Origin: a virus
Direction: 5' to 3' (one strand)
Virus record (IMG/VR): IMGVR_UViG_3300042876_001171
Span: 1-31,899 of that record
DNA: 31,899 nucleotides
The position numbers and the translations under genes were made by a program. A model generated the notes under the pieces. It was not told where the DNA came from and ran no database searches. It was given only the letters and a program-made list of their open reading frames with translations. Position 1 is the stretch's first letter. Every line of letters begins with the position of its first letter. Shown here piece by piece: positions 3,422 through 29,200 of this stretch.

Positions 3422-3723
3422 GGCTGCACCTGCACGAGGCTGCCGAAGTCGTCGATCACCGCGTGCATCGGCCCGCTGATCCAGCCCGTGACACACACAG
3501 CCCACAGCCCGGGCATGCACCAGCGGCTGTGGCGGTGCCACTCCAGGCCGTCGGCGCCGCCCATGTAGCCGGTCAGGCCGCCGCGGTGCCACCAGACGGC
3601 GGCGCGCGCAGCGGCACTGCCAGGGCGGGGCGCAGAGGGCGGGGCGCTGTTGCGCAGGCCGAGCGGGGCAGCCGGCGGCGGCATCAGCACCGGGGGCTGG
3701 CCGTGGATCGCGTAGCCGTTCAT
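3418..3723 (-). CDS. Hypothetical phage early protein, 101 aa, Gly/Trp/Pro-rich
   Basis: ATG 3723 follows AGGAGA at 6 bases, so the start is well supported. The sequence has a Pro-rich N-terminal third and a Trp/Gly/His-rich region (AVWWHRGGLTGYMGGADGLEW). It ends in a short hydrophobic stretch CMPGLWAVCVTGWISG, which is too short and interrupted to be a confident membrane span. I do not recognise it. It is the second gene of the leftward operon. Confidence 0.68.
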   Translation of the reverse strand: MNGYAIHGQPPVLMPPPAAPLGLRNSAPPSAPRPGSAAARAAVWWHRGGLTGYMGGADGLEWHRHSRWCMPGLWAVCVTGWISGPMHAVIDDFGSLVQVQP

Positions 3724-3869
3724 CGCGTGTCTCCTGACCCCGGGGTGGGGTGTGGGAGAGACGAGAGCACACACAGCGCCGGGCTGCGGCCGTGGGTGCG
3801 ACGGCGCAGCTTGTGCGCTGCGAGTACGAGGCGCAGATCGTCTGCGCGGATGCTGGCGGGGTGTGGCAC
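3720..3869 (-). CDS. First gene of the leftward operon: basic 49-residue protein
   Basis: The frame opens at GTG 3869 behind a strong GGAGG (3876-3880, 6-base spacing) and ends in a TGA that overlaps the next ATG as ATGA. It lies about 20 bases downstream of the predicted leftward start site, so it would be the promoter-proximal cistron. The product begins PHPASIRADDLRLVLAAHKL, followed by Arg-rich RRRTHGR, which suggests a small basic helical protein. In lambdoid phages this first leftward position is where N-type antiterminators (small, Arg-rich) sit. That comparison is positional only. Confidence 0.55.
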   Translation of the reverse strand: MPHPASIRADDLRLVLAAHKLRRRTHGRSPALCVLSSLPHPTPGSGDTR

Positions 3870-3898: not shown

Positions 3899-3927
3899 AT
3901 GATGCATAAACGTATCGGTCATGTCAA
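3899..3927 (-). promoter_or_regulatory. Leftward early promoter (PL-like)
   Basis: On the minus strand a perfect TTGACA (3922-3927) is followed after 17 bases by CATCAT (3899-3904, 4 of 6 to the -10 consensus). Transcription would start near 3892, about 12 bases before the ribosome site of the first leftward gene. Both boxes overlap operator dyads at 3900-3917 and 3925-3942, so a bound repressor would block it. Confidence 0.72.
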
Positions 3928-3967
3928 TACAGCGACGCATCATTTCCTGTGATACGGTGGCATTGGG
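3900..3967. promoter_or_regulatory. Left operator cluster: two 18-bp dyads plus one half-site, 25 bp apart
   Basis: Site 1 is TGATGC-ATAAAC-GTATCG (3900-3917). Site 2 is CAATAC-AGCGAC-GCATCA (3925-3942). A half-site TGATAC (3950-3955) begins exactly 25 bp further on. The centres at 3908.5 and 3933.5 are 25 bp apart, as in the right cluster at 4819-4861. The sites cover the leftward promoter and precede the HIRAN gene. Binding by the repressor and the Cro-like protein is inferred from position and symmetry. Confidence 0.72.
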
Positions 3968-3975
3968 GGGTGCTT

Positions 3976-4446
3976 ATGAGCGGACTGTTCCTGGTGGTGT
4001 TGATCGCTTTTGGCGTCGGAATCCTGATCTGGCTACTGGTGCCAAGGTCATCGACTCACGCGTCGGATCAGAACTCCGCGGGTGGGCGCCCGGTGATGCC
4101 GCGCATAAACGGCAACGGCAGCTACGCGATCGAGGTGGTGGGCGAGAGCCACTACCAGGCCAGCTTTGAGGCTCTGCTGGGTGCGTTGGCGTACACCGAG
4201 AGCGAGATAAGCGGCGATGCCGTGCTGCAGCTGCAGGACGACAATCCGCATGACAGCCAAGCCGTGGCCGTGTTTGTCGAAGGCCGGCAGGTAGGCCACC
4301 TGTCGCGAGACATGGCGCGCACCTTTCGTCAAGCACTGCGGCGCGATGGCTTCGGGCAGTTACGAAAGGTCGCTGTCGGTTGCCGCATCTATGGCGGCGG
4401 CACAGAAGGGCTCTTTAGCGTGAGCCTAGATCTGCCGGAGGCTTAG
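3976..4446 (+). CDS. Membrane-anchored HIRAN-domain protein
   Basis: The start is ATG 3976; an ATG at 3949 would put extra polar residues ahead of the membrane segment and lies within the operator cluster. Residues 3-23 (GLFLVVLIAFGVGILIWLLV) are a transmembrane helix, followed by a polar linker to about residue 45. The rest resembles a HIRAN domain: VVGESHYQASFEALLGAL, then LQDDNPHDSQAVAVFVEGRQ and VGHLSRDMARTF. HIRAN domains in HLTF/Rad5 bind DNA 3' ends; bacterial and phage stand-alone forms are poorly understood. The gene sits between the left operators and the repressor gene, with which it converges and overlaps by 32 bases. A role in immunity or exclusion is inference. Confidence 0.8.
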   Translation: MSGLFLVVLIAFGVGILIWLLVPRSSTHASDQNSAGGRPVMPRINGNGSYAIEVVGESHYQASFEALLGALAYTESEISGDAVLQLQDDNPHDSQAVAVFVEGRQVGHLSRDMARTFRQALRRDGFGQLRKVAVGCRIYGGGTEGLFSVSLDLPEA

Positions 4447-4786
4447 GGCCGCCCGTCTCGCGAGGGAACAGTGCCCGCGCGACATCGATGACTTGCCGCA
4501 GCTGCTCGTCGGTCAAGTGCCGCATGACGGCCTCTGCTTCGCCAAGCAAGACACGCGATGACAGTGGTACCTCGCCCATCAACTCGCTCAGCGTGACCCC
4601 GAGCGCTCTGGCTAGCGCTTCAAAGTTCTCGACCGTCATTTCCTTCGTCTTGCCGCTGAGGTAGCGCGACAGCGTGGGCTGCTCCACGCCCGCCGCTTCA
4701 GCCAGCTTTCGGTCGCTTGGGAACCCACGAGCGTCCCGCAGCTCGCGGATCCGCTCGCGTGGGTCAAAGGTGCGCCGGTAATGCAT
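4415..4786 (-). CDS. Phage repressor, XRE/HTH family, short form (CI-like)
   Basis: The 123-residue product has an N-terminal helix-turn-helix (about residues 20-70) containing RKLAEAAGVEQPTLSRYLSG with KTKEMTVENFEALARALG after it. I chose ATG 4786 because the candidate promoter at 4833-4862 would start transcription near 4826, downstream of the other possible ATG (4837). The C-terminal part (to GSR) is only about 50 residues and shows no S24/LexA-type peptidase, so RecA-driven self-cleavage is unlikely. It probably binds the 18-bp dyads at 3900-3942 and 4819-4861 and keeps the lysogenic state. Its 3' end overlaps the convergent HIRAN gene. Confidence 0.85.
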   Translation of the reverse strand: MHYRRTFDPRERIRELRDARGFPSDRKLAEAAGVEQPTLSRYLSGKTKEMTVENFEALARALGVTLSELMGEVPLSSRVLLGEAEAVMRHLTDEQLRQVIDVARALFPRETGGPKPPADLGSR

Positions 4787-4809
4787 CCGTGCATTCTCAC
4801 GGCTCGGGG

Positions 4810-4837
4810 TTGCGCAGGTGATGCGTGTCTGTATCAT
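4810..4837 (+). promoter_or_regulatory. Rightward early promoter (PR-like)
   Basis: TTGCGC (4810-4815) and TATCAT (4832-4837, 5 of 6 to consensus) are 16 bases apart. The start site would fall at about 4844-4846, on or next to the ATG of the cro-like gene. The promoter is overlapped by the dyad at 4819-4836 and followed by the one at 4844-4861. The -35 box is weak, so confidence is moderate. Confidence 0.55.
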
Positions 4838-4861
4838 CGCGACTTATGCATCACGGTATCA
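4819..4861. promoter_or_regulatory. Right operator cluster: two 18-bp dyads, 25 bp apart
   Basis: Site 1 is TGATGC-GTGTCT-GTATCA (4819-4836). Site 2 is TTATGC-ATCACG-GTATCA (4844-4861). The centres are 25 bp apart, identical to the left cluster, and the 10-base string TTATGCATCA of site 2 recurs inverted at 3900-3909. The sites cover the divergent promoters of the repressor and cro-like genes and the cro start codon, as expected for a CI/Cro switch. Confidence 0.75.
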
Positions 4862-4862
4862 A
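4833..4862 (-). promoter_or_regulatory. Candidate repressor promoter (PRM-like)
   Basis: On the minus strand TTGATA (4857-4862, 5 of 6) and GATGAT (4833-4838, 4 of 6) are 18 bases apart. It overlaps the rightward -10 box on the other strand, so the two promoters would exclude each other. Transcription would begin near 4826 and leave a leader of about 40 bases before ATG 4786. Confidence 0.42.
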
Positions 4863-5166
4863 CTTGTCCGCGCTGGCCCGCAGCCTTATCGACCGACGCC
4901 TGTTCACCACCAAGACCCTAGGTGAGGCCATCGGCTTGTCGCAGCCATCGGTGTCGCGCTTGGCCAGCGGCAAGACTAAGGAGATTGGTGCATATCCAGC
5001 GCTGAGGCTCATCGAGCTGGCGGGCGGGACTGTGACGCCTCCTGTGGCGGTCGAAGTCAGGCTCAAAGAGCCAGCCAACGCTCCTCCCATCCCCGCGCCT
5101 GCCGTGGCCGCCAGCCAAGCCGCACAGCCGTCCACCACCACGAAGGCCACCCATGCCGCAGGCTGA
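4846..5166 (+). CDS. Cro-like XRE/HTH regulator, 106 aa
   Basis: The start is ATG 4846 (MHHGINLSALARSLIDRR); a GTG at 4825 would extend into the operator. The helix-turn-helix spans about residues 20-50 (KTLGEAIGLSQPSVSRLASG). It carries SR-x2-SGKTKE, which the repressor encoded on the opposite strand also has, so both probably read the same operators. The C-terminal third is Pro/Ala-rich and likely disordered. No ribosome site precedes the ATG, and the predicted transcript starts almost at it, so the message may be leaderless. It would be the first gene of the rightward early transcript. Its last codons and stop lie in a 35-base segment repeated at 5538. Confidence 0.8.
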   Translation: MHHGINLSALARSLIDRRLFTTKTLGEAIGLSQPSVSRLASGKTKEIGAYPALRLIELAGGTVTPPVAVEVRLKEPANAPPIPAPAVAASQAAQPSTTTKATHAAG

Positions 5167-6681: not shown

Positions 6682-9426
6682 TTGCCAGGACCTCACTCCC
6701 CCATCGACTTTGTGGCGCTGGCCGATGCGCTGCTGCATCGGGCGCACACGCTGCTGTCTCAATGGATACCCGGCGGCCACATGGAGGGCCACGAGTACGT
6801 TGGCCCCAGCCGCCGAAGCGGCGGCGTGGGCGACAGCCTGAAGGTCAACACCACCAATGGGCGGTGGGCCTACTTTGCGGGGGACGACAGCGACAGCGGC
6901 GGCGATCTCGTGTCGCTCTACGCCTGGCTGAACAATCTGCCGCAAGGCAAGGCGGCGCTGCAGCTGATGGACGAGCTGGGCTGGCAGCGCTCGCGCACGG
7001 CTGCACCGGCGGGCGGTGACGCGGCAGCCGGCACGCCGGCCTGGCCCGCGGATGTGCCGCCCGATGACGAGGCCATGCTTGCCCCGGCAGCGCCCAGCCC
7101 CGCGCGAGCGCCTGATGCGCCGCCGCCGGCGCCGGTGGCCCGCCAGGAGCGGTGGGTCAGTGTTCTGCCAGTGCCGCCGCATGCGAAGCCGCCCCGCTCG
7201 TTTGTGTTCGCGTTCAAGAACGAGAAGCTGGGCGCGTGGCAGGAGATCGAGGCTGCCAAGGTCTGGGAGTACCGTTTCGAGCGCGAGTTGTTCGGCTACG
7301 TGTGCCGCTTCGAGCGGTTCAACAGCAGCGGCGAGCTCACCAAAGACACGGTGCCGCTGACGTGGTGTGAAGACACCCAGGACGCGCGCCGCGGTGCCAA
7401 GTGGCACTGGAAGACCTGGGCCACGCCGCGCCCGCTGTACGTGCCGGCCACGCTGCTGAGCGGCGACCCTGCCAACGTGCCGGTGGTCATCGTGGAGGGC
7501 GAGAAGTGCGCGTTGGCCGGGCACGAGCTGCTGGGCCACGAGTTCGACTTTGTGAGCTGGCCCGGTGGCAGCCGCAGCTGGGCACTGGCGCGCTGGAGCT
7601 GGCTGATGGGGCGCACGGTGTACCTGTGGCCCGACTGCGATGCGGCGCGGGTGAAGCTGAGCCGGGCCGAGCGCGAGGCCAACGTCGACCCGGCCACCAA
7701 GCCGCTGCTGCCCGAGGCCAAGCAGCCGGGCATGCAGGCCATGGTGGGCATTGGCCAGTTGCTGCTGGCCGAGCAGGGGTGCGACGTGCTGCTGTGCCCC
7801 ATCCCGAAGCCGGGCGCGGTGGCGCACGGCTGGGACATCGCGGACGCCATCGCCGATGGGTGGGACGCTGCGCGCGTGCGCGATTTCATCCGCTCGGCAC
7901 GGCCCTTTGCGCCCCCTGACGAGGCCGTGCGTGCGAAGGCGGGCGATTCCGTGGCGGCGGCGGCGCAAGCCGCGTCTACCCCTTCCAGGGCTGCCGCAGG
8001 GGAGGGGGAAGGCGACGAGGCGCTGGGTTGGCTGGTGCACCTGCTGCGCAGCGGCTCGGGTGCTGTGCGCAACGTGCGCGAGAACATCGTGCTGGCCCTG
8101 GACGGGCTGCCGGGCACCAAGGTGCGCGGCATCGAGGCTTGCGCCGGGTTGATCGGCTTCAACGAGTTCAGCAACAACATCGAGAAGCGCCGGCCCACGC
8201 CGTGGGGCACGCCCGCGGGCGACTGGATGGAAGCTGACGAACTGCTGCTGGGCGACTGGCTGGTGCGAGAGCACCGCATGCCCAGCATGCCCCGCGGCGC
8301 GCTGGAAGAGGCGGTGATGGTGGTGAGCAGGCGCCACAGCTTCCATCCCCTGCGCGAGCGCATGGAGGCCTTGCGCGGCAAGTGGGACCAGCAGCCGCGC
8401 CTAGACCGCTGGCTGCGTCTGACGATGCTGGAAGAGGACGAATGGGACGAATCCGATCCGCTGGTGCGCTATCTGGCGCTGGCTGGCACGTGGTTCGTCA
8501 TGGGCATGGCGGCGCGGGTGATGCCCGAAAAGCGCGAGGGCGCGCAAGTGGTGGTAGGCCCTGGCACCAAGTTTGACTACATGCTGGTGTTCGAGGGGCC
8601 GCAGGGCTGGGGCAAGAGCTCGGCGGCGGCGGTGCTGGGCGGCGAGTACTTCGCCGACACGGGCCTGGACCTCGAGCACAAAGACTCGCTCATGAACATC
8701 CAGGGCGTCTGGGTGTACGAGTGGAGCGAGCTTGAGAACCTGAACAAGCAGGAAGTGGGCGCGGTGAAGCGCTTCGTTTCCAGCCCGACGGATCGGTTCC
8801 GCGCCACGTTTGACCGCCGGCCGGCGAAGTACCCGCGGCAGGTGGTGTTCATCGGCACGACGAACGAATCGCACTACCTCACAGACCCGACGGGCAACCG
8901 CCGTTTCTGGCCGGTGCGCGTGACGCGGCCGCCCGACCTGACCTGGCTGCGGGCGAACCTGGAGCAGCTGCTGGCCGAGGCCGTGCACCGGGTGGACGCG
9001 GGCGAGCGTTTCTGGCCCACGCGTGATGAGCAGCGACTGCTGTTCGATCCGCAGCAGCATGCTCGCACGGTCGAGAGCGGTATGGAGTCAGCGATCCGCG
9101 CGTTCTTGTATGACGAGACGCAAAAGACCTTCCCGAATGAACAGGCAGGTACGGCGTTGAACGAGATCGCCCTGGGCGAGCTGCTTAGGAGGATCGGCTT
9201 CAGCACGGACAAGCAGACCGACGCGGTGGGCAAGCGGGCGGGCGCAGTGATGAAGGCGCTCGGCTGGGAAACCCGCAAGACCAGCTTGCCCGGTCGGCCG
9301 CGTGTGTACGTGCGGCCGAGGAATGAACCGCGTTTCGAGGCGGGCGCAAGCCCTGGATCGAACGATGACAGCGTAGCCGGCGGCCAATCGCTGGCGCATG
9401 GAGACCCCGATGGGAACCCCTTCTAG
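6682..9426 (+). CDS. Primase-helicase fusion with VapE/VirE-type ATPase, 914 aa
   Basis: This is the replication enzyme of the phage. Residues about 30-95 resemble a CHC2-type primase zinc-finger fold (GDSLKVNTTNGRWAYFAG, then GGDLVSLYAW) but lack the zinc-binding cysteines. Residues about 265-330 look like a Toprim core: VVIVEGEKCALAGHELLG with the acidic motif WPDCD. The C-terminal half matches the virulence-associated E family: Walker A EGPQGWGKSS near residue 640, acidic WVYEWSELENL, and FIGTTNESHYLTDPTGNRRFW. The start is uncertain: TTG 6682 is the first start after an in-frame stop, GTG 6712 is also possible, and neither has a good ribosome site. It would synthesise primers and unwind DNA at the phage origin. 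Confidence 0.85.
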   Translation: MPGPHSPIDFVALADALLHRAHTLLSQWIPGGHMEGHEYVGPSRRSGGVGDSLKVNTTNGRWAYFAGDDSDSGGDLVSLYAWLNNLPQGKAALQLMDELGWQRSRTAAPAGGDAAAGTPAWPADVPPDDEAMLAPAAPSPARAPDAPPPAPVARQERWVSVLPVPPHAKPPRSFVFAFKNEKLGAWQEIEAAKVWEYRFERELFGYVCRFERFNSSGELTKDTVPLTWCEDTQDARRGAKWHWKTWATPRPLYVPATLLSGDPANVPVVIVEGEKCALAGHELLGHEFDFVSWPGGSRSWALARWSWLMGRTVYLWPDCDAARVKLSRAEREANVDPATKPLLPEAKQPGMQAMVGIGQLLLAEQGCDVLLCPIPKPGAVAHGWDIADAIADGWDAARVRDFIRSARPFAPPDEAVRAKAGDSVAAAAQAASTPSRAAAGEGEGDEALGWLVHLLRSGSGAVRNVRENIVLALDGLPGTKVRGIEACAGLIGFNEFSNNIEKRRPTPWGTPAGDWMEADELLLGDWLVREHRMPSMPRGALEEAVMVVSRRHSFHPLRERMEALRGKWDQQPRLDRWLRLTMLEEDEWDESDPLVRYLALAGTWFVMGMAARVMPEKREGAQVVVGPGTKFDYMLVFEGPQGWGKSSAAAVLGGEYFADTGLDLEHKDSLMNIQGVWVYEWSELENLNKQEVGAVKRFVSSPTDRFRATFDRRPAKYPRQVVFIGTTNESHYLTDPTGNRRFWPVRVTRPPDLTWLRANLEQLLAEAVHRVDAGERFWPTRDEQRLLFDPQQHARTVESGMESAIRAFLYDETQKTFPNEQAGTALNEIALGELLRRIGFSTDKQTDAVGKRAGAVMKALGWETRKTSLPGRPRVYVRPRNEPRFEAGASPGSNDDSVAGGQSLAHGDPDGNPF

Positions 9427-13224: not shown

Positions 13225-14525
13225 CCACGATCCTCGACCTCCACGCCCGCCGGCATGACAGCCGCGTGCTCACCGCCTGGCTGGCCACCCGCCCGGGCGC
13301 GGCTGAGCGGGTGCAGAGCAACGTGCACACCGTGGCGGCGCTTGAGCGTGGCGACGGCCCCATCACGCACCAGCAGCTGGCGGCGGCGCTTGGTGGCCTG
13401 CCGTCGTCGGCTGGCGTCGTCGTCAACGAAACCGTCGCGCGCAGCGTCTCGGCCGTGTGGGCCTGCGTTGACCGCATCGCCGGCGCCATCGCATCCATGC
13501 CGCTGCCCGTGTACGAGCGCACCGGCGACAGCCGCTCCCGCGTCGATCACGATGTCTGGTGGCTCCTCAACGAAGAGCCCTGGGACAACCTCAGCGCCGC
13601 CACCTGGCTTGAGTACCTCGTCGGCTGCCTGCTGCTGGGCGGCGATGCGTTCGCCGAGATCCTGCGCCCCGGCTTCCGCTCCGCGCGCATCACCGGCTTC
13701 CGGCCCCACCACTGGAAAGACGTCTCCGTCGGCTTCGACCCCGATGGCCTGCTGATCTACGACGTGCACGACAACATCACCGGCGAGATGCGCCGCGTGC
13801 CCGCTGCCGACATGATCCACGTGCCCGGCCTGTTCTTCGACGGCAAGCGCGGCCTGTCGGTGCTGCGCGCCGCAGCGCGCGATGCCGTGGGCATCAGCAG
13901 CGCCGCGGCCGACTTCTCCGGCCGCTTCTTTGCCAACGGCGCCGCGCCGTCGGTGGTGCTGAAAACGGCCAAGGCCCTCGAGCCCGGCCAAGCCGACGCC
14001 CTGCGCACCAGCTTCGAAGCGCGCTTCACCGGCCAGGGCAACATGCACCGCCCCATCGTCCTGGCCGGCGGCATGGAGCTTGAAAAGCTCTCCATCACCC
14101 CCGAAGACGCCTCCCTGCTCGATACCCGCCGCTTCCAGGTCGAAGAGATCGCCCGCATCTTCGGCGTGCCGCCGCACATGATCGGCCACACCTCGGCCTC
14201 TACCTCGTGGGGCACCGGCATCGAGCAGCAGAGCATCGGCTTCGTCAAGTACACCCTGCAGCGGCACTTGGTGAAGATCGAGCAGGAGCTCAACCGCAAG
14301 ATCTGGCCGACGCGTGCGCGCTACTACGTCGAGTTCTCGGCCGTCGGCCTTGAGCGCGGCGACACCAAGACGCGCAACGAGGCCTACCGCATCGCACTCG
14401 GCCGTGCGGGTGAGCCCGGCTGGATGTCGGTCAACGAAGTTCGCCGCGCCGAAAACCTGCCGCCCGTTGAGGGCGGCGACATCATGGGAGCGCCCAATGC
14501 GCAAACTCCTGCAGCTCCTGGCTGA
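13221..14525 (+). CDS. Phage portal protein, HK97 type
   Basis: The 434-residue protein forms the dodecameric channel at the capsid vertex and docks terminase and head-tail connectors. It carries typical portal segments: VWACVDRIAGAIASMPLPVY (residues about 80-99), RRVPAADMIHVPGLFFDG, and near residues 310-330 the conserved IARIFGVPPHMIGH followed by TSWGTGIEQQSIGFVKYTL. The C-terminal end is DIMGAPNAQTPAAPG. It starts at ATG 13221 in an ATGA overlap with the large terminase, and its last 29 bases overlap the protease gene. Confidence 0.95.
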   Translation: MTTILDLHARRHDSRVLTAWLATRPGAAERVQSNVHTVAALERGDGPITHQQLAAALGGLPSSAGVVVNETVARSVSAVWACVDRIAGAIASMPLPVYERTGDSRSRVDHDVWWLLNEEPWDNLSAATWLEYLVGCLLLGGDAFAEILRPGFRSARITGFRPHHWKDVSVGFDPDGLLIYDVHDNITGEMRRVPAADMIHVPGLFFDGKRGLSVLRAAARDAVGISSAAADFSGRFFANGAAPSVVLKTAKALEPGQADALRTSFEARFTGQGNMHRPIVLAGGMELEKLSITPEDASLLDTRRFQVEEIARIFGVPPHMIGHTSASTSWGTGIEQQSIGFVKYTLQRHLVKIEQELNRKIWPTRARYYVEFSAVGLERGDTKTRNEAYRIALGRAGEPGWMSVNEVRRAENLPPVEGGDIMGAPNAQTPAAPG

Positions 14526-15252
14526 CAACCGCGGGCCGCGCGCCCCGGTGCAGCTTGAGGGCTCCACCCTCTACGTCTACGACGCCATCGTCGGCACCAA
14601 CGCCGAGGCCGAGTTCTGGGGCGGCGTCAGCGCCGAGGCGCTGGTGCCCGTGCTGCTGAATCAGCCCGAGGGCGCCACCCTCACCATGCGCATCAACAGC
14701 GGCGGCGGTGATGCGTTCGCGGGGCAGGCCATCCTCAACGCAATGCGGCAAAGCCCCGCCACCATCAACGTCGAAGTCGACGGCCTGGCCGCCAGCGCCG
14801 CGTCGATCATCGCCCTCGGTGGCGACCGCGTGCGCATCGCTGAAGGCGCCATGGTCATGATCCACAACGCCTGGATCATCGCCATGGGCAACGCGCAGGA
14901 CATGATCGAAACCGCCGCCCTGCTGTCCAAAGTGGACGACACCGCCGCGCAGCAGTACGCCGACAAGACCGGCAAAGACAAAGCCCGCATGGCCGAGCTC
15001 ATGGCCGCAGAAACCTGGTTCAGCGCCTCCGAGGCGCTTGACATCGGCCTCGTCAACGAAATCGTCAAGCCCGCCGCCAAGGCCCAGGCCCAGGCCAGCG
15101 CCCCGGCCAAGGTGTGGAACCTCTCCGCCTACAGCAAGCCGCCCCAGGCGGCCTGCCAAGCCCCCCAGCCGCCGGCCGAGCCGGTGCTGAGCCCCGAACA
15201 AGCCCGCGCCCTCATGGCGCGGGTTGACAAACGCTGGCGCCGCGCAGCATGA
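14497..15252 (+). CDS. Prohead maturation protease, ClpP/S14 type, 251 aa
   Basis: ATG 14497 follows GGGAG inside the portal gene. The protein has the ClpP crotonase-like core: RINSGGGDAFAGQAI (residues 66-80) for the oxyanion region, GLAASAASIIALGG with the probable nucleophile Ser100, and MVMIHNAW with His123. The next block, EETAALLSK-like helices and AETWFSASEALDIGLV, closes the domain. A Pro/Ala-rich tail runs from about residue 200. It should cleave the capsid protein's N-terminal scaffold region and other prohead parts. A terminator-like hairpin follows the stop. Confidence 0.92.
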   Translation: MRKLLQLLADNRGPRAPVQLEGSTLYVYDAIVGTNAEAEFWGGVSAEALVPVLLNQPEGATLTMRINSGGGDAFAGQAILNAMRQSPATINVEVDGLAASAASIIALGGDRVRIAEGAMVMIHNAWIIAMGNAQDMIETAALLSKVDDTAAQQYADKTGKDKARMAELMAAETWFSASEALDIGLVNEIVKPAAKAQAQASAPAKVWNLSAYSKPPQAACQAPQPPAEPVLSPEQARALMARVDKRWRRAA

Positions 15253-26279: not shown

Positions 26280-29200
26280 GTGCCGCAAGCCGTAGCCGCG
26301 TGGATTGCCACGTACACGCTCACCGCCACGAGCGTGCTCACGTACTCGCAGATCGTCGCGCTCACCTACACCGCCTTCGCCGCGGCCACCATCACCTACG
26401 GCAACCACCAGCGCCGCAAGCAGCAGCGCGCAGCGCGCGATGCCTTCAACGCCAGCGTCGAAGACCGCTTGGTGATGACGGCCACCGCCCAGGCCGCCCG
26501 CAGCCGCGTGTACGGCCGCGTGCGCAACGTCGACGGCGTGGTCTTCAAACACACCCACGGCGCAAACAAAGAGTTCTACACCCTCGTCATCGCCCTGGCC
26601 GGCCACGAGGTAGACGCCATCGAACAGGTGTGGTTCAACGACGTGCCCGTGGCGCTTGACGCCGCCGGCTTCGTCACCACCGCGCCGTGGAACATCACCC
26701 AGTCCTTCGGCAGCACGCTGAGCATGACGGTGGCCGGCGGCGCCGGCAGCGTCACGCTGCCGCCGGGCTTTCAGAGCAGCGTGCCGCCCCAGGCGCTGCT
26801 TGAGGGCGACGAGGGCTTCAGCTACTCGGTAGGCGGCACGGTTTCAAACGGCGTGTTCAGCGTCTCGGGCGCGCTGTTCGATGGCGTGTACCGCGTCATG
26901 TTCCAAGAGGCCTACACCGAAAGCCGCGCCCGCGTGCGCCGCTACACCGGCGCCCCGGGGCAGAACCTCTACAACGACCTCACCGCGCTGGTGGGCGCCG
27001 CCGTAGGCCCGAGCGACCGGTTCGAGGGCTTTGCCGCGCTGCTCGTCACGCTGCAGTACGACCAAGACGCCTTCCCCACTGGCGTGCCCAACATCAGCGC
27101 CGTCATGCGCGGCGCCCGGGTGTTTGACCCCCGCACCAGCACCACCGCGTGGACGGAAAACCCCGCCCTCATCGCCCGCGACTGGAGCCTGCACCCCCAG
27201 GGCGGCGGCTGCGTGGCGGCCGAGATCAACGAGCCCGCCTTCATCGCCGCGGCCAACGCGTGCGATGTCTCCACCACCTTTGCGCTCGCGCAGGGCGGCC
27301 CTACCGTGCGCCCGCTGTACCAGTGCGGCATCGTCATCCCGCTCGATGCCAACCCCGACGAGGCCCTGGGCGAGCTCTGCGAGGCCATGGCCGGGCAGTG
27401 GGGCTGGGCCGGCGGGCGCCTGAGCGTGCGCGCCGGTGTGTACCGCGCCCCCGTGGCCACCGTCACCGAAGACTGGGTCACCAGCGTCGAAGCCATCCAG
27501 ATCACCCCCGGCGCCAGCACCGCCGAGGCCGTCAACGTGCTGCGCCCCACCTATGCCGACCAGGGCCAGGGCTACGTGCAGACCCCCGGCCCCGAGGTGC
27601 GCGCCGCCGCCTACGTCACGGCCGACGGCCGCGAGCTGGTGCAAGAGCTGCAGCTCGGCGGCGTCACGCAGAGCGTGCACGCGCAGCACGTGTGCGGCGT
27701 GCTGCTGCGCGAGGCGCGCGAGGCCCTCACCGTGCAGCTGCCGTGCAACCTGCGCGCCTACCCGCTTGAGCTGTTCGACGTGGTGTCCGTCACCCTGCCG
27801 CGCTTTGGCTGGGCAGCCAAGCTCTTCGAGGTAGTGGCCTGGCGCTTCAGCCCGGCCGGCGGCGTGCTGCTCACCCTGCGCGAAACCGCCGCCGCCAACT
27901 ACACCGTGGCGCCCGAGTTCGACGTGCTGACCGCCAGCCCGAACACCGGCTTGGCCCGGCCCGAGGCGCCGCCCGCCATCACCGGGCTGGCGGCCACCAG
28001 CGGCGGCGTGGCGCAGATCGACGGCAGCAGCCTCGCGCGCATCCGCGTCACCTGGGATCCGGTTGCCAGCGAGGCCGTGCGCCAAAGCGGCAGCATCGAG
28101 CTGCAAGTGGCCGAGGTCTACGCCGGCCTGCCTGCTGGCGACTGGCCCGCCGTGCCGCCCGCCGCCGGCCGCGCCGTGGCGGCCGACATCTTCGGCCAGC
28201 GCATCGGCCGCCTCGTGGCCATCCGCGCCCGCGCCGTCAACACACTCGGCATGCGCGGCCCGTGGGTGCAGATCACCCACCAGGTCAGCGGCCGCCGCGC
28301 CCCCGTGGTGTGGCGCCAGGCCGCAGCCCCTGCCAACGCCAGCGTGCAGGACGGCGACGAGTGGGTCGACACCGACGACGCAAACCGCCGCTACCTGCGC
28401 GCCTCCGGCGCCTGGGTAGACGTGCGCGACGCCACCATCGCCACAGCCGCCACCACAGCCACCTGGACGGGCGTGAGCAGCCGGCCGGCCAACCTGGCGG
28501 GGCTGGGGGGTGGGGAGGCGATCCTGAACGACGCCACACGTCCAGGCGCTGGCAACCAGTACCGCAACACCGACTTCGAGCTTGAGCCTGTTGGGCACAC
28601 TGGCCCGCCCACGTGGTTCGCGCACTACAACAACGGCGGATACCCGGCGAGTCACCTTATCAGTGCCGGCGGCCCCATCGGCAATGCCAAGGTCTGGCGC
28701 ATAACGCCCGGCGTGGATGTGTTCAACACCTGGGGATTCCTGCTGTTCGCGGATGGCTGGACGGGCTGGCGCAACCACCTATCCTACGTCTGGAGCTTCT
28801 ACGCTCGCGCCCCGTCTGGCGGCAACATCGTCGGCGCTGGGTTCTTTGCAAATTGGAACCAGTGGCCAGAATCTGAGGAGTGGCTCGAAAACCCGCCGCT
28901 GTCTACGGATTGGCAGCGCTACGTGCTGCGCATCAATTTCGGGAACGAGGCCATTGACCCCAACGGGTTCGTGTCGATCACTGCCCCCCCGCGGGCCGGC
29001 GTGCCGCTGGAGTTCTCGTGCATCGCAGTTGAGCCAGGCCTTACTCCGTCTGGCTGGGCGCCGTACCAGTACGTCCACAACAACAGGCTGTACGGGCTCG
29101 GCACGGCAGGCTCGGGCACAGAAGTGGCGAACGCCGCACTGGTGCCCTCGATCAACAGTGCCGCCACCACAGCCACGTGGTCCGGCGTTTCCGGCCCCGG

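Follow-up and report, generated by a model that had tools for sequence, protein, structure and literature searches.

The immunity (immB) regions of the telomere phages N15 and phiKO2 contain three right operators (OR) between the divergent repressor gene and cro, and two left operators (OL) beyond the repressor gene, with an OL–OR distance of ~630–700 bp (PMC4997575). The repressor of these phages, CB, has no RecA cleavage site (PMC4997575). The cI and cro mRNAs of PY54, a phage related to N15 and phiKO2, are leaderless (PMC4488713). The PaaR2/YdaS system of CP-933P comprises a small CI analogue without a peptidase motif and a Cro-like partner, and its repressor gene is leaderless; the operators are 18-bp palindromes and are located at both PR/PRM and PL (PMC8630535).

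In this study, the immunity region of an IMG/VR virus contig (IMGVR_UViG_3300042876_001171) was analysed and compared with these systems; the contig, 31,899 bases in its whole length, is referred to as the window. The region is best read as the immunity switch of a temperate tailed phage, of the lambda/N15 type with two OL and three OR sites, in which five operators would be shared by CI and Cro, and we assign this reading a probability of about 0.86. The OL/OR-like design put forward in a preliminary description is strongly supported, because the five sites, their spacing, their overlap with promoters and the flanking repressor genes are alike in three phages.

Operator dyads and their conservation

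Four 18-bp dyads had been described in the window at 3900–3917, 3925–3942, 4819–4836 and 4844–4861, and both their positions and the distance of 25 bp from centre to centre within each pair are as claimed. The form given for them, TGATRC-N6-GYATCA, is matched exactly at 4819–4836 only, with one, two and one mismatches at 3900, 3925 and 4844, respectively. The inventory was sound for these four dyads and missed a third right-hand site, 4779–4796. The five sites, compared with those of two related phages, L005 (IMGVR_UViG_3300042691_035629) and L006 (IMGVR_UViG_3300021437_000035), are as follows (dyads, without strand):

3900–3917: OLa, predicted operator dyad, TGATGCATAAACGTATCG; holds most of the PL −10 hexamer (minus strand); kept in L005 (3422) and L006 (8266)
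3925–3942: OLb, predicted operator dyad, CAATACAGCGACGCATCA; overlaps the PL −35 hexamer; 25 bp from OLa; kept in L005 (3447) and L006 (8291)
4779–4796: ORa, predicted third right operator, TAATGCATCCGTGCATTC; covers the cI start codon; ORb is 40 bp away in each of the three phages
4819–4836: ORb, predicted operator, TGATGCGTGTCTGTATCA; holds most of the PR −10 hexamer; centre 41.5 bp upstream of the cI start
4844–4861: ORc, predicted operator, TTATGCATCACGGTATCA; lies across the cro start codon; kept in L005 (3999) and L006 (9079)

A fifth half-site, at 3950, had also been described. The motif TGATAC is present there, but the most distant relative, L006, has nothing like it at that place, and in L005 the nearest match lies at a deletion junction. 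A sixth operator at this position is therefore not supported, and the half-site probably has no operator role.

Frequent chance recurrence, named beforehand as one result that would count against the dyad, was not observed: no match with at most one mismatch occurs outside the reported dyads in the whole 31,899-base record. Matches with at most two mismatches numbered 9 in the window, against 2.45 expected. The summed mismatches of the two 25-bp pairs were 1 and 3, and the best 25-bp pair in 300 dinucleotide shuffles never had fewer than 5. When spacings of 19–60 were scanned, a sum of 3 or less was reached only by 25 (two pairs) and 40 (one pair, 4779–4796 with 4819–4836).

The two relatives were obtained by different routes. 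L005 was found by a Cro search, and its CI and Cro are 77% and 75% identical to the window proteins. L006 was retrieved by DNA pattern alone, using the right-hand operator pair in a scan of viral contigs, and the right-hand pattern matches the left cluster in L006; beside the sites, the retrieved stretch has genes for homologues of CI (48%) and Cro (42%). Blastn detected no DNA similarity between the window and L006. Site identity between these two phages was 72% for OR and 81% for OL, compared with 38% and 35% in the flanks. The spacings are the same in the window, L005 and L006 (OLa–OLb, 25 bp; ORa–ORb, 40 bp; ORb–ORc, 25 bp), and the distance between the OL and OR clusters is 919, 552 and 788 bp, respectively.

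Sites were also ranked with leave-one-phage-out matrices, in which the window was scored by a matrix built from the two relatives only and ORa was part of no training set. Across ~31,900 window positions, OLa, OLb, ORb and ORc took ranks 1–4 and ORa took rank 6. The same four sites were the top four in L005 and in L006, with ORa at rank 5 in each. Rank 5 in the window was an operator-like dyad at 6723–6740, CGATGCGCTGCTGCATCG, near the start of a primase/helicase ORF; it has no match in the retrieved stretches of the relatives and is probably due to chance.

Several other candidates and searches were considered. L007/L004 matches L005 at 100% identity across 6461 bp and was not counted as an independent relative. 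L013 was rejected as a CI relative, being a weak match (38% across 56 residues) whose operator-like sites did not exceed chance, and five genome-contig matches to the OL pattern were set aside as coming from unrelated phyla at about the number expected by chance. Single-sequence searches of viral contigs with CI and with the HIRAN-domain protein (listed below) gave no match, and neither did a search of genome contigs with the Cro alignment. Among phage records, no close relative was found and the window CI had no match; the window Cro gave weak HTH matches in two records, at 43% identity, and the L006 CI gave one in a single record, at 35%. Tyrosine integrases are present in the L005 and L006 records, and none was found in the window fragment. 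Two closely placed tyrosine recombinase matches were seen in each relative's record (G001, 13245–15141; G002, 26436–27713).

Promoters, start codons and neighbouring genes

Promoters were called by resemblance to consensus, and the calls are supported by invariance across the three phages:

3899–3927, minus strand: predicted PL promoter, TTGACA-17-CATCAT; hexamers and spacer length invariant in the three phages
4793–4798, minus strand: putative PRM −10 hexamer, GAGAAT, 6 nt before the cI start codon; CAAAAT and CAGAAT in the relatives
4810–4837, plus strand: predicted PR promoter, TTGCGC-16-TATCAT (TTGCNN-16-TATCAT in each of the three phages); 8 nt separate it from the cro ATG

The sequence of the leftward TTGACA promoter proposed to lie under the dyads was confirmed on the minus strand from 3927 to 3899; its −35 overlaps OLb and its −10 lies at the edge of OLa in the window, L005 and L006. 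The rightward promoter and the cro start, proposed likewise, fall within the 4819 and 4844 sites. The right half of ORb, with one further base, forms the PR −10; the cro ATG is at 4846. No PRM −35 was recognisable in the three phages, and the cI start codon is GTG in L006. The centre of ORb precedes the cI start by 41.5 bp in all three phages, close to the position expected of an operator through which a repressor could activate PRM. The PR −10 stands so close to the cro ATG that no room is left for a ribosome-binding site, and cro is therefore predicted to be leaderless; judged by the −10-to-start distances of 6 nt (cI) and 8 nt (cro) in the three phages, both mRNAs are probably leaderless.

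The genes around these sites are as follows:

3720–3869, minus strand: first leftward early ORF, about 49 aa, with a GTG start (chosen by eye) after GGAGG; similar ORF in L005
3976–4446, plus strand: HIRAN-domain protein, 156 aa (PF08797, 4.8e-8), with a hydrophobic N-terminus; between OL and cI
4415–4786, minus strand: CI-like repressor, 123 aa, with a Cro/C1-type HTH and a C-terminal helical hairpin, and no S24 peptidase domain
4846–5166, plus strand: Cro-like protein of 106 aa with an HTH, of which 37 residues align with CI at 51% identity

CI and Cro are both assigned to the Cro/C1-type HTH proteins (HTH_3/HTH_26 fold), and CI matched PF01381 (7.2e-11). The Pfam match of Cro (E 0.0059) is below the curated cut-offs, and its model matches P22 c2, CapH and similar proteins. 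Past the HTH, the structure model of CI contains only the C-terminal helical hairpin. No S24/LexA-type peptidase domain was found in CI, nor PF00717 in any of the three records; without a C-terminal peptidase/oligomerisation domain, CI falls outside the family of self-cleaving lambdoid repressors. The best whole-length fold match of the CI model was Bacillus SinR (1b0n_A), which has an HTH followed by C-terminal helices and is not a phage repressor; the TM-score on the query was moderate (0.52) at 7.3 Å rmsd, so only the HTH of CI is safely like SinR. The Q-P-[ST] and R of the recognition helix are common to CI and Cro, and the 51% HTH identity fits the use of one operator by both proteins.

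Between OL and cI lies a variable cargo slot, which holds the HIRAN protein, its remnant or a small membrane-type protein. The HIRAN gene and cI overlap tail to tail by 32 nt, and transcription from OL would run antisense into cI. The 5′ part of the HIRAN gene is deleted in L005, which accounts for the shorter OL–OR distance there, and the gene is absent from L006. In this slot, downstream of cI, L006 encodes a 104-aa hydrophobic protein (8328–8642, minus strand) at the position of lambda rex; Pfam and PHROG returned no match for it, and it is possibly a lysogeny-expressed exclusion gene.

To the right of cro, the window contains two direct repeats, 5451–5523/5832–5904 (73 nt) and 5151–5191/5538–5578 (41 nt), both 93% identical, which frame two small leftward ORFs; the arrangement may represent a duplicated cassette of small genes. 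L010 has a separate 50-bp repeat (6216–6265/6785–6834, 96%), which overlaps a stretch similar to window 5079–5156. Elsewhere in the window, ARAGORN called a tRNA-Ala at 15098–15187 (minus strand) inside a long plus-strand ORF (14314–15252), and the call is probably a false positive.

Proposed switch and alternative readings

In the three phages, divergent cI and cro genes have operators over the cI start, PR and the cro start, which both proteins would occupy, and a second cluster of the same sequence lies over a leftward early promoter past the repressor gene. In the proposed switch, whose anatomy fits the double-negative scheme of lambda, a CI-like dimer and Cro, with near-matching recognition helices, would bind the five common operators. 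OLa and OLb bury PL, ORb buries PR and ORc extends over the cro start, so that CI on OLa, OLb, ORb and ORc would keep both early operons silent. CI on ORb would probably also activate its own promoter, PRM, which has no recognisable −35, because ORb is centred at 41.5 bp, where lambda CI at OR2 activates. The activating acidic patch of lambda CI is not clearly conserved in the window CI when compared by eye. ORa, presumably the weaker site, would limit cI expression from its place over the cI start, and Cro on ORa would turn cI off in the lytic state; the relative preferences of CI and Cro among the sites cannot be read from sequence. As CI has no S24 domain, induction is probably achieved by a route other than RecA-stimulated self-cleavage, for instance through an antirepressor.

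That the dyads arose by chance, or as a by-product of promoter and start-codon conservation, is scarcely credible. ORa and ORc do cover start codons, and coding constraint may account for some of their conservation; the −10 hexamers, too, are part of ORb and OLa. However, at ORa and ORc the dyad is preserved although the encoded residues vary from phage to phage, and the dyads reach well past the promoter hexamers and persist where the flanks do not. The dyad pattern moreover found the third phage, L006, blind. Matrix ranks, the identity of sites versus flanks and the shuffles, none of which gave a comparable pair, refute a chance origin for practical purposes. It is improbable, though less remote, that the sites are used by one HTH protein only (most simply the Cro-like protein) or divided between the two, with CI acting elsewhere or with another specificity. 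The phiKO2 OL is bound by CB and not by Cro (PMC4997575), and shared use of operators therefore cannot be assumed; against this stand the HTH identity of CI and Cro, which includes the Q-P-[ST] and R of the recognition helix, and the location of ORa over the cI start and of ORb at the cI activator position.

The reading with five shared operators could be extended by a repressor-mediated DNA loop between the clusters, as in lambda, in which OL- and OR-bound CI would form a higher oligomer, giving tighter repression and control of cI; we give this slightly less than an even chance. In phiKO2, which has the same layout (three OR and two OL) and a comparable distance of ~630 bp, OL and OR are joined in vivo in a loop made by a repressor that is not cleavable (PMC4997575, PMC8053113), and the CP-933P repressor PaaR2, without a peptidase motif, octamerises (PMC8630535). 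The predicted C-terminal helical hairpin of CI could likewise oligomerise, and the conserved 25-bp spacing fits lateral contacts between dimers, which the cooperative binding suggested earlier would involve. However, CI is without the lambda-type C-terminal domain that makes octamers, and the OL–OR distance varies among the three phages, so that neither a conserved loop length nor a constant helical phase is seen. Somewhat unlikely, in our view, is a further elaboration in which the short CI hairpin would both oligomerise, possibly looping over variable distances, and receive an antirepressor, making this a minimal lambda-like switch with non-SOS induction.

Relation to known switches

What the analysis adds is a compact switch of five sites with a new operator specificity; the prediction reaches single-base precision, is supported by three divergent uncultured phages and is directly testable with reporters. 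The two-cluster layout of lambda and N15 recurs here with a much smaller, non-cleavable repressor.

The window shares with N15/phiKO2 the OR(3)/OL(2) layout and a repressor without self-cleavage. However, CB is ~200 aa long and the window CI 123 aa, and BLASTP finds no similarity between them; the N15/phiKO2 operator is TA-N10-TA, whereas the window sites have a different sequence. Without a significant CB alignment and with another operator, the window repressor does not belong to the CB family. The spacings are 26/23 and 23 bp in N15 versus 40/25 and 25 bp in the window, and the N15 prophage is a linear plasmid, in contrast to L005 and L006, whose records contain tyrosine integrases.

With CP-933P, the window has in common a small peptidase-less CI, a Cro-like partner, a (here probably) leaderless repressor gene, 18-bp palindromes and operators on both sides. 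As described, CP-933P differs in its operator, GTTTAGTAA, in its four equally spaced OR palindromes and in the toxin–antitoxin pair behind the repressor.

As in lambda, two clusters flank cI, with sites over PL and PR at a similar spacing (~24 bp in lambda), and the centre of lambda OR2 is 42 bp from the cI start, compared with 41.5 bp for ORb. Lambda has six sites and the window five, and the OL–OR distance is 2.36 kb in lambda against 0.55–0.92 kb in the three phages. The centre of OR3 precedes the cI start by 19 bp in lambda, against 1.5 bp for ORa, and lambda CI has a self-cleaving C-terminal domain, which the window CI lacks. The kind of switch is thus already known from lambda, N15/phiKO2 and CP-933P, and the window system is distinguished within it by its own operator sequence, the 40/25-bp right operator and the very small repressor.
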